From contig NZ_JABFNK010000005.1 of assembly GCF_020386975.1 (NCBI RefSeq), positions 62,001 to 126,000 on the forward strand: a DNA stretch of 64,000 bases, given 5' to 3'. This document shows positions 48,567 through 52,500 of this stretch, one piece after another. The notes beneath the pieces were generated by a model. The model saw nothing but the letters and a program-made list of their open reading frames with translations, ran no database searches and was not told the DNA's origin. Numbering within the stretch: the first letter of the stretch is position 1; every line of letters begins with the position of its first letter. This stretch comes from Thermococcus bergensis. Lineage in GTDB: Archaea; Methanobacteriota_B; Thermococci; Thermococcales; Thermococcaceae. The position numbers and the translations under genes are program-made.

Positions 48567-48665
48567 CTTGGAAAAGAACCGGGAGAGCTTTAAAAAGGGA
48601 TAAAAATACTTGAGGAAATAGATAAAAAGGGGAACGCCTAGATAAAAGCGGAATGATGAGTCTTA

Positions 48666-48841
48666 ATTCCACTCCCTCCATTAGAAGAACAAAAGAAAAT
48701 AGCCCAGATTTTCATGACCATTGATAATAAGATTGAGGCTGAAATGAAGATAAAAGAAGAGCTTGAGAAATTCAAGCATGGTACGATGGACAAACTTCTC
48801 ACTGGAAAGGTGAGGGTTAAGGTGGGTGAGGAAAGTGGATA
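48666..48841 (+). pseudogene. C-terminal fragment of a type I restriction specificity subunit (HsdS)
   Basis: The frame reads PLPPLEEQKKIAQIFMTID, then NKIEAEMKIKEELEKFKHGTM and DKLLTGKVRV with a stop at 48839-48841. The LPPLEEQKKIA motif and the final LLTGKVRV are hallmarks of the second conserved helix region of HsdS, which recognises DNA for type I restriction-modification. Only about 57 residues remain; the rest was lost to the left. The last bases overlap the start of the DUF262 gene, showing they once formed an operon. Confidence 0.85.
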
Positions 48842-50691
48842 AGCTTGACCCAAAGATGGAGAATTTGCTTGAGATATTGAAACAGGCTGAAGATGGGAAA
48901 TTAGTCCTTCCTCAGTTCCAAAGAGACTTTGTGTGGTCTAGGCAGGATATTAAAGACTTGTTGGTCTCACTCCTCAATGGTTACTTTGTGGGCACCTTCC
49001 TCTTCCTTAGAACAGAGTCAACCAACCCTCCATTCAAATGGAGACCAATTCAGGGTGTCAGTTTGCCAGTTGATAGAGATGGTAACTATATTGCAGAACC
49101 AGAGGCCATGATTCTTGATGGCCAGCAGAGGATAACATCACTTCACTATGTGTTCTATGCACCACCAAAAGAGGTTGTCACCCCAAAGTACACCAGCAAG
49201 AGATATCTCTTCTTCTTGAGGCTTGAAGAATTGGAAAGGGGTAATGTTGAAGATGCTGTGTTCAGTGTGGTTGAAGATGATGCCAGGAAGTACCTGGACA
49301 AAAACCATCAGTTTGAGCATAAAATAGTCCCATTCACAGAGCTCTCTAACAAAGAAAAGTGGAAAGATTGGCTAGAGGGGTTTGTAGAGTACCATGTTGA
49401 CAAATATATAGAGGAAAACATTGGTGAAGAAGTTAGCTATAAACAGGGCAGAGAACTCACCCAAGAGTACAAGAGACAACTTAAGGCAAAGTCAGACCTC
49501 TGGGAGAAGTACATTAACAATCTCCTAGAGTTCAAGGTTCCAGTCTTATACTTGCCAAAAATTGAACCAGACAATAAACAGAAACTTAGTGAAGTCTGCA
49601 CAATATTTGAGAAGATGAACAGCACTGGAGTCAAGTTATCAGTCTTTGACCTCTTGACTGCCAGACTGTATAAGGATGACATTGACCTTCACAAAATATG
49701 GCAGGACACTGTTGACTCATTTGAAAACATCAGAAAGTTGTCTGAGGACAACCCAGACCTCTTTAAGGTGTTGCTACTCAGGGCACTGGGCCTTATGAGG
49801 GTGCTTAGGGACAAGGATAAGGACAAGGGTGAGAAGGAGATTAGTGATGTCAAAAACAGGTCTTTAATTAATCTGTCACCAATTGGTTTTGAGAATGATT
49901 GGTGGACTATGGCAGAATACTTTGACAAGGCCATTGAAAGAGTCATGAGTACTAACCAAGATGGGTTTGGAGCATTCCTGCCAAAGTGGGTTCCTTACAA
50001 ACCCATGCTCCCAGTTTTGGCAACACTCCTATATTATGTGGAGGGTACCAGAGAATTATCACCAATAGAAAAGAGCAGGGCTTACACACTGATAAAGCAG
50101 TGGTATTGGAGTTCAGTATTCACTGAGAGGTACAGCAGTGCTGTTGACTCAAAGTCCCTAAGTGACACCTTGGAGCTAATAAAAGCTTTCAAAAAGCCTG
50201 AAGATACCCCATCAATGATTGATGAGGCAAGGGCTAGGGTTACCTCACTAAACTTATACACAGTCTCAAGAAGTGGAAGTGCAATTTATAGAGGTATTAT
50301 GAACTTAATTGCATTGAACCAGGCAAGGGACTTTCTCAAAGGTGATGCCATAGAATTCCATAATTTAGAAGACCACCATATATTCCCTCAGGCTTTCCTA
50401 AGGAGGCAGGGTTTTGGGGACAAGGACAAATACAAGATTAATACCATACTTAATAGAACACTGATTTCTGATGAAACCAACAGGAAGATTTCAGCAACAT
50501 CACCAAAAGAGTACCTTAAGTGGATTCCTGGTGATTTGGAAAAAGTTCTCAAGCCCCACTTTATTGACTCTGAGTGTATTGATGCAATGAGAGAAAATAA
50601 TTATGAGAAGTTCTTAGAGAGGAGGAGAGAACTTATTATAAACAAAGTGCTGGAACTCATTGGTGGGGGAGAAGAGGATGTCAACTCCTGA
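48826..50691 (+). CDS. DUF262/DUF1524 protein, GmrSD-like (type IV restriction-type)
   Basis: A 621-residue protein. N-terminal DUF262 motifs VLPQFQRDFVWSRQDIKDLL and MILDGQQRITSLHY form the NTP-binding/hydrolysing ParB-like domain; the C-terminal part has an HNH-type core, LEDHHIFPQAFLRR and INTILNRTLISDETNRKI, like DUF1524. This architecture matches single-chain GmrSD enzymes that restrict modified phage DNA, and the related proteins embedded in defence islands. GTG 48826 overlaps the HsdS remnant; GTG 48835 is an alternative start. The gene appears intact although its neighbours are broken, and it contains no CpG dinucleotide at all. Confidence 0.85.
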   Translation: MRKVDKLDPKMENLLEILKQAEDGKLVLPQFQRDFVWSRQDIKDLLVSLLNGYFVGTFLFLRTESTNPPFKWRPIQGVSLPVDRDGNYIAEPEAMILDGQQRITSLHYVFYAPPKEVVTPKYTSKRYLFFLRLEELERGNVEDAVFSVVEDDARKYLDKNHQFEHKIVPFTELSNKEKWKDWLEGFVEYHVDKYIEENIGEEVSYKQGRELTQEYKRQLKAKSDLWEKYINNLLEFKVPVLYLPKIEPDNKQKLSEVCTIFEKMNSTGVKLSVFDLLTARLYKDDIDLHKIWQDTVDSFENIRKLSEDNPDLFKVLLLRALGLMRVLRDKDKDKGEKEISDVKNRSLINLSPIGFENDWWTMAEYFDKAIERVMSTNQDGFGAFLPKWVPYKPMLPVLATLLYYVEGTRELSPIEKSRAYTLIKQWYWSSVFTERYSSAVDSKSLSDTLELIKAFKKPEDTPSMIDEARARVTSLNLYTVSRSGSAIYRGIMNLIALNQARDFLKGDAIEFHNLEDHHIFPQAFLRRQGFGDKDKYKINTILNRTLISDETNRKISATSPKEYLKWIPGDLEKVLKPHFIDSECIDAMRENNYEKFLERRRELIINKVLELIGGGEEDVNS

Positions 50692-51028
50692 AGAGAGGGT
50701 ATCTGAGTACCCCTTTATCAATATCCTGTCCAAGGAACTTGGCTGGGATTATGTGCCTCCTTCAGAATTAAAGAAGGAGAGAGACTATAACTCAGCTCTT
50801 CTTAAAGACAGGCTAATGAGGGCCCTCCTCAGGATAAATGCTGAGAAAATAACTGAAGAAGATGCAAAGCAGATAATTAAGAAGCTGGAATACCTCCCCC
50901 ACACTATAAAAGGAACTATTGACAAGTATAGACTGGAGAATATCAAAAACTATAAGAGTCTCCTTAAGTTTTTAATGAACTTTCTGAGACCTCAAAACAA
51001 TCATCATTGTTGGAAAGCATTGAGTTGA
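50678..51028 (+). pseudogene. N-terminal fragment of a type I restriction subunit (HsdR)
   Basis: ATG 50678 overlaps the stop of the DUF262 gene (coupled). The protein begins STPEERVSEYPFINILSKEL, GWDYVPPSELKKERDY and LLKDRLMRALLRINAEKITEEDAKQIIKKL, typical of the start of HsdR, the motor-nuclease subunit of about 1,000 residues. Only about 105 residues remain before the frame is lost. In the next frame 51002-51129 reads LLESIELKREEFLRQGLLED and ends at PPEW with a stop, probably a piece of another subunit. The alaS-derived DNA begins at about 51140. Confidence 0.8.
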
Positions 51029-51189
51029 AAAGGGAAGAGTTTCTGAGACAAGGACTTTTAGAAGATAAGTTTAAGAGTGGTGATGAAAAACCCACTGGTG
51101 GGATGATGAGTCTGGAGCCCCCTGAGTGGTGAGGAGGTTTCGCGGGGCTGACTCCTGAAATCGTTAAGGAAGTAGCTGAAAAAGAAGGC

Positions 51190-52500
51190 ATGAAGGTCAA
51201 GGTCCCAGATAACTTTTACAGCTTAATTGCCAAAGAAGCTGAAAAGACTGCCAAAAAGGAAGAAGAAAAAAGTATAGTGGACTTTGAGCTGGTTCAAGAC
51301 CTGCCTGATACAAGAACCCTCTATTATGAGGATCCCTTCATGAAGGAATTCGATGCAAGGGTTCTTAGGGTGATAGATGACTGGGTGGTTTTGGATCAGA
51401 CAGCGTTTTATCCCGAGGGCGGAGGTCAGCCGTGTGATTTGGGCGAGCTCAACGGAATTAAAGTGCTCGATGTCCAGAAAGTTGGCAAAGTAATTCTCCA
51501 TAAGGTGGAGAAGCCTGAGGCTTTCAAAGAAGGTGACAGCGTTCACGGAAAAATTGACTGGGAGAGGAGAATACAGCACATGAGACACCACACCGGTACT
51601 CACGTCCTTATGGGGGCTCTCGTAAGGGTTCTCGGAAAACACGTCTGGCAGGCGGGTTCTCAATTAAGCGCCGACTGGGCTAGATTAGATATAGCTCACT
51701 ACAAGCGCATCAGCGAAGAGGAGCTTAAGGAGATAGAGCTCTTAGCAAATAGGGTTGTGATGGAAGATAGAGAGGTAAAATGGGAATGGTTGCCGAGAAC
51801 TGAGGCAGAGCAAAAGTATGGTTTTAGGCTTTACCAGGGTGGAGTTGTGCCGGGGAGGATAATTAGAATTTTGAACATTAAAGACTGGGATGTTCAAGCC
51901 TGTGGAGGTACCCACTTGCCTAGAACAGGTTTGATAGGCCCAATAAAAATACTCAGGACGGAAAGAATACAGGATGGGGTTGAGAGAATCATATTTACAT
52001 GTGGCGAGGCAACCATCAAGGAATGGCAGAAGGAAAGGGAGATATTAAGCAGAACAAGTGAAGTATTTAGAGTACCTCCAGAGAAGCTGCCAGAAACTGC
52101 GGAGAAGTTCTTCGAAGAGTGGAAGCAGGCGAGAAAAGAAGTTGAAAGGCTTAACAAGGAGCTTGCAAAGCTTTTAATCTATGAGCTCGAGAGTAAAGTA
52201 GAGAAGGTAGGGGACGTTGAGTTCATTGGAGCAGTGGTTGAAGGAGAGATAGAACACTTAAGGGAAGCGGCTCTAAAGCTTAAGAGACCAAACAGGGTTG
52301 TTGCATTGATAAGTGAAGACAGCAAAGCCGTTGTGATCAGCGTTGGTGATGAACTGCCACACAAAGCCGGCGATTTGGTAAAGACAATCACGAAGATTGC
52401 GGGTGGAGGCGGCGGAGGTAAGAAAGACCTTGCCCAAGGAAAGATAAAGAACGTCCTAAAGGCTAAGGAAGCTCTAGAGGAGCTCAAAAAGGCTCTCTAA
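51190..52500 (+). CDS. Partial duplicate of alanyl-tRNA synthetase: freestanding editing and C-Ala domains
   Basis: Corresponds to the C-terminal half of the full AlaRS at 58858-61587. The catalytic domain is absent. The editing domain is complete, with its zinc ligands in RHHTGTHVL and CGGTHL, followed by the C-Ala region with the glycine-rich [13 protein letters not shown]. This makes it the same architecture as AlaX-L, a trans-editing protein that removes Ser or Gly from tRNA-Ala. The frame is open from about 51130; ATG 51190 after GAAGG is the first good start. There are no frameshifts or stops over 436 residues, suggesting selection, but a promoter has not been identified. It may be a nascent trans-editing factor or a not yet decayed fragment. 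Confidence 0.85.

Follow-up and report, generated by a model that had tools for sequence, protein, structure and literature searches.

Thermococcales mobile elements nearly free of CpG, with a decayed remnant at a box C/D sRNA gene of Thermococcus bergensis

Among the closest described systems are pTN3 and the TKV elements, integrative plasmids and proviruses of Thermococcales, which share with the elements reported here a tyrosine recombinase, an MCM-type helicase and a size of 16–22 kb. The GATC-free state is likewise common to pTN3 and our elements. In contrast to pTN3 and TKV, the present elements lack CpG and occupy box C/D sRNA genes, and three of them (E1, E2 and E4) carry defence operons as cargo. 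Avoidance of short sequences under host pressure has been described in two other settings. In vertebrate viruses, CpG suppression linked to ZAP is likewise CpG avoidance under host pressure, but there CpG is reduced rather than absent and is sensed in RNA, whereas here noncoding DNA is equally free of CpG and the hosts are archaea. We are not aware of any natural replicon of double-stranded DNA, tens of kb long, that has zero CpG. In plasmids and phages, restriction-site avoidance holds specific short motifs of the mobile DNA, but not those of the host, far under what a Markov model predicts, with motif sets that vary from element to element, as they do here (PMC10359461). The targets known from that work are 4–8 bp long, while here the missing motif is a bare dinucleotide, at zero over 17–22 kb in several elements, and the agent is putative.

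A keyword literature search, with subscription papers mostly outside its coverage, returned nothing on CpG-free mobile elements of archaea or on integration at sRNA genes, which leaves novelty unproven. Neither sRNA nor small RNA is mentioned in a review of archaeal tyrosine recombinases (PMC8371274), and a 2026 preprint on Thermococcales viruses is silent on CpG, dinucleotides and sRNA (PMC12934983).

The CpG-free tract and its anatomy

The window, a 64,000-nucleotide stretch of a Thermococcus bergensis contig, contains no CG from 48785 to 51140 (flanking CpGs at 48784 and 51141; 2357 bp), where 98.9 are expected from base composition and about 66 from the local density of CpG. The initial annotation had recorded zero CpG over 48786–51139 against roughly 100 expected, which is confirmed and was even understated. 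Its remarks that GpC is common inside the tract (67 counted) and that CpG is ordinary in the flanks hold as well; a truncated alaS copy beyond the right edge is normal in CpG. In 864 kb sampled from the 2.08-Mb host genome (G000, Thermococcaceae), the CpG observed/expected ratio (o/e) is 0.669 and the mean spacing 30.8 bp, which rules out host-wide CpG depletion. CpG-free stretches of 2 kb, which the initial annotation had named as the finding that would speak against it if common in this genome, are not common: the next longest gap in the same sample is 332 bp, and the chance of a 2357-bp gap at this CpG density is about 10^-34. The CpG-poor tract begins further left, at ~48650, and includes the single CpG at 48784, which is consistent with mutation of ATG to ACG in the dead hsdS fragment that contains it. 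We also found a parallel loss of GATC that had been missed before (0 in the tract vs 5.8 expected).

Judged from its genes and boundaries, the tract is the decayed remnant of a Thermococcales integrative mobile element, inserted at the box C/D sRNA gene sR23. Its features, and those that adjoin it, are as follows.

48650..51100, + strand: CpG-free element remnant, 2.45 kb, with 1 CpG and 0 GATC
48653..48663, + strand: left att-like scar ATGATGAGTCT, fused straight to the hsdS tail; exact match to the E1/E2 att core
48664..48842, + strand: hsdS 3' remnant (type I specificity subunit), ...IPLPPLEEQKKIAQ...GEESG stop, with the same C terminus as the intact HsdS in loci L021 and L022
48826..50691, + strand: intact DUF262/GmrSD_N gene, 621 aa; Pfam PF03235, 116.9 bits (cut-off 33.2)
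50678..51028, + strand: truncated hsdR 5' end, beginning just as the 1011-aa L021 HsdR does
51012..51100, + strand: right-terminal element block adjoining sR23, about 80% identical to the E1 right end
51101..51153, + strand: host box C/D sRNA gene sR23 (RF01138), the integration site (attR); 74.2 bits (gathering threshold 45)
51139..52500, + strand: truncated second alaS copy (C-terminal half) with ordinary CpG, outside the CpG-free tract; Pfam tRNA-synt_2c, tRNA_SAD and DHHA1

The initial annotation had the CpG-free border coincide with the border of a foreign island, at alaS-derived DNA. The two edges do coincide, with the left one at ~48650 and the right one at sR23 rather than at alaS. The truncated alaS copy lies directly after sR23 and its start is 68% identical to alaS residues 460–522, while an intact alaS copy is found at ~58852, about 7.7 kb downstream. 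The type I restriction-modification (RM) system of the window is incomplete, in that only the hsdS tail and the hsdR start remain, and the integrase gene is gone. On the truncated hsdR, the HSDR_N match (22.1 bits) falls under its cut-off of 25.1; on the 621-aa DUF262 protein, the PF07510 (GmrSD_C) match scores 18.2 bits, under the cut-off of 23, and the protein contains an EDHHIFP motif. Among genomes that have this gene, the nearest named relatives of G000 are Thermococcus MAGs.

Intact relatives with near-zero CpG

Homologues of the DUF262 gene at 91–92% identity were found in genomes G001 and G016, within the elements E1 and E2. These elements are 16.9 kb each and 99% identical outside a difference in the hsdS target domain. 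They encode a tyrosine recombinase (E1: PF00589, 57.1 bits, cut-off 27.1), an MCM helicase, two small genes, HsdM, a membrane protein, a KwaA-like protein, KwaB, HsdS, DUF262, HsdR and a YgjP metalloprotease. Both are bounded at either end by the att core TGGGATGATGAGTCT, with sR23 intact at the right end, and on both sides the host DNA switches abruptly to normal CpG. Each element contains 7 CpGs against about 620 expected, 6 of which are common to the two, and GATC is absent from both (46.9 expected in E1 and 45.8 in E2 by the Markov model). The initial annotation had asked whether the homologues of this gene and their neighbours are also CpG-free; this is the case throughout E1 and E2, and it is not in the homologous operon of a third genome, G028 (o/e 0.34).

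E1 and E2 thus hold a complete hsdM, hsdS and hsdR set with embedded Kiwa-like genes and a GmrSD_N gene, an operon of which the window keeps only a remnant. The KwaA-like and KwaB genes lie between hsdM and hsdS (L021 7000–9219); the E1 KwaA-like match is 2e-18, and KwaB reaches 28.9 bits in Pfam (cut-off 26.3) but has no KwaB match in PADLOC. The hsdS genes of E1 and E2 differ in one target-recognition domain, and the one in E2 corresponds to that of G028 (L021, L022, L023), which suggests domain swapping.

Surveying further integrase/MCM loci yielded E4, whose primase in turn led to E5. E4 (in G071) spans 19.2 kb with 1 CpG against 627 expected and 2 GATC against 63.3; it is bounded by sR23 on one side and by the att core on the opposite side, the ends form a 24-bp exact repeat, and its integrase scores 59.7 bits (Phage_integrase). 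E4 carries a BREX type 4-like operon in the order BrxP, BrxC, PglZ, BrxL (L113 851–11558). These four genes in order are shared with BREX type 4, and the difference lies in the carrier, which is CpG-free; the window has no such operon. E5 (in G018) spans 22.3 kb and lacks CpG (673 expected), GATC (80 expected) and CATG (69 expected) altogether. Its integrase match is only 24.4 bits (Phage_integrase cut-off 27.1), and on the right it ends at a different box C/D sRNA gene, sR43 (RF01128, 58.5 bits; L140 3889–3948). The gene layout and the set of primase, integrase and packaging-like ATPase make E5 provirus-like, and no capsid gene was identified among its genes. In addition, G026 contains a 2.3-kb CpG-free remnant adjoining sR23.

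Pooled over E1, E4, E5 and the two remnants (63.1 kb, leaving out E2 as the twin of E1), there are 9 CpGs where 2123 are expected, and the host DNA that flanks E4 and E5, like that around E1 and E2, is normal in CpG. E4 and E5 have a primase block in common at about 69% DNA identity, while the only common part of E1 and E4 is the integrase, at 30–31% identity; the CpG-free state is therefore found in at least two unrelated backbones. It is seen again in separate assemblies, including three single-contig chromosomes, which rules out an assembly artefact. Among 50 flanks of sR23, a set that excludes the loci of the window and of G071, a CpG gap of more than 1.5 kb occurs in 3 (E1, E2 and G026), and all others are at most 431 bp. 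Other Thermococcales elements and regions surveyed, pTN3 included, have a CpG rho of 0.5–1.1. No relatives were found in plasmid DNA or IMG/VR contigs; the matches in phage records were confined to distant DUF262 proteins, and those in plasmids to distant MCM proteins. A comparison of E4 and E5 DNA with 94 genomes gave no CRISPR-spacer-like match, the weak matches not having been viewed one by one.

The box C/D sRNA genes sR23 (window 51101–51153; L022 15536–15588) and sR43 (L140 3889–3948) are element integration sites in Thermococcales, so that box C/D sRNA genes now join the integration sites used in archaea. CpG freedom provides a simple compositional tag for finding further elements of this kind.

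CpG scope, regain and the DUF262 gene

The noncoding DNA of the full elements contains 0 CpG against 88 expected. This rules out codon choice as the cause, in agreement with the initial annotation, which had argued that the depletion goes beyond it. Since noncoding DNA is as CpG-free as coding DNA, what is acted on is DNA, or at any rate not solely the translated message.

CpG returns in copies that have been captured. In the G028 element E3, the type I operon has a CpG o/e of 0.34 against 0.80 in E3's own replication module. Among lineage-specific substitutions in the DUF262 gene, 12 of 72 create CpG in E3 and 23 of 160 in a decayed copy in G063, which is the neutral level (0.149), as is expected of an avoided motif once the pressure has ended. 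The window copy (0/35) and E1 (1/19) show almost none. Regain is not uniform, since a decayed copy in G057 lags, with only 5 of 94 substitutions creating CpG. Between E1 and E2, 131 substitutions outside the hsdS module have produced 2 CpG differences, against about 18 expected neutrally. Taken from these sequence comparisons, the pattern fits an operon whose CpG freedom was ancestral, was kept while the element was mobile and was lost afterwards. CpG regain could accordingly serve as a clock for the time since integration.

These results bear on the suggestion that the purging of CpG reflects an action of the GmrSD-like enzyme on it. We found no support for this. CpG freedom extends over entire elements, down to the integrase and helicase genes; it is even more marked in E4, which carries BREX, and in the provirus-like E5, in neither of which a DUF262 gene was seen; and CpG is present in the intact homologous operon of G028. 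Of the original reading, the island with extreme CpG avoidance stands and proves more general than claimed, while the cause centred on the DUF262 gene does not.

Candidate causes of CpG loss and other avoided motifs

CpG is far below expectation in the elements and not in their hosts, as in restriction-site avoidance, and differing sets of zero motifs per element are the signature of that process. We infer that selection is the force and a restriction-like host system its agent: a CpG-directed barrier that purges CpG during the mobile phase of the elements is the explanation we rank first, with slightly better than even confidence, ahead of hypermutation. Such an element inserts through its tyrosine recombinase into sR23. 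Some hosts on its route would bear a DNA-directed barrier that senses CpG in DNA that enters or replicates unprotected, and each CpG would lower establishment, so that selection would strip CpG and, separately, GATC from coding and noncoding DNA. Once a copy is fixed in the chromosome, or its genes have moved to an element of another host pool, selection would end and CpG would come back by mutation. Because the present hosts are rich in CpG, such a barrier must sit in other hosts or recognise self. It is conceivable, with somewhat less than even confidence, that some Thermococcales possess an undescribed anti-mobile-element system that senses bare CpG, with self marked by CpG modification or chromosome context, and that plasmids and proviruses escaped it by near-total CpG loss. 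No restriction enzyme specific for CG alone is known to us. In a survey of archaeal RM systems, CG is not among the persistent motifs (PMC10609329). That unrelated backbones have the trait in common points to one strong, recurrent pressure in Thermococcales, and a CpG-directed immune barrier is directly testable.

Hypermutation, which we place second and consider rather unlikely, would have CpG in foreign replicating DNA m5C-methylated, or hit by a CpG-specific deaminase, in some host and converted to TpG/CpA by heat or enzyme. In E1, the G lost from NCG codons reappears as A with the purine share unchanged, CA/TG is raised (rho 1.2–1.3), and third-codon-position replacements are biased to transitions. 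However, a similar excess of A after C is present in control elements and host genes, and at CpG sites that differ between E1 and E3, transitions make up 77% of the single-step cases against 76% at control sites. When the third-codon-position test was run with several baselines, the controls shifted both predictions, and the pooled values lay between those of selection and mutation. The loss of GATC and CATG would require additional mutators. The persistence of six CpGs in both E1 and E2 has, by a back-of-envelope estimate, a likelihood of about 0.003 at the decay rate for a rho of 0.01; tolerated sites fit these six better than fast CpG decay.

The elements might instead bear the signature of a donor, an unsampled lineage with a wholly CpG-free genome, so that host composition rather than pressure on mobile DNA is responsible. 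Their GC content of 0.35–0.39, against 0.52–0.58 in the present hosts, is in line with a foreign origin, but the att sites are Thermococcales sRNA genes, E1 and E2 stayed CpG-free while diverging, and no CpG-free cellular genome is known to us. We regard this origin as improbable. Less credible still is self-avoidance, in which an island nuclease (DUF262/GmrSD, KwaB or HsdR) cuts CpG DNA and the island is CpG-free to escape its own cutting. E4 does have BREX, and E1 and E2 have the type I RM/Kiwa-like/DUF262 operon, but the provirus-like E5 has zero CpG and shows no such operon, the full operon of G028 coexists with CpG inside it and in the host, and the HsdS target domains differ among E1, E2 and G028. 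The version centred on GmrSD is rejected, with E5 and all other element genes equally CpG-free. Chance, codon choice or assembly artefact can be set aside as next to impossible, given the gap probability, the CpG-free noncoding DNA and the recurrence in separate assemblies.

The 9 distinct residual CpGs of E1, E2 and E4 have C or G at 15 of their 18 flanks (p = 0.001 against the CpGs of the E3 operon, in a post hoc comparison), a weak hint of a context preference of the putative CpG-directed agent.

Other motifs are avoided elsewhere. The pTN3-like elements (L090, which is pTN3, L093, L095, L096 and L104–L108) strongly avoid GCCC/GGGC, with 10 against 103 expected in pTN3, which also has 0 GATC against 58. 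E3 (L023, G028) contains 4 ACGA/TCGT against 39 expected, 0 CCWGG against 15 and 0 GCWGC against 13, a motif set unlike that of E1 despite the homologous RM operon. In L101 (G075:C22:87000-100000), TATA is found 0 times against 41 expected and TAGA/TCTA once against 65.
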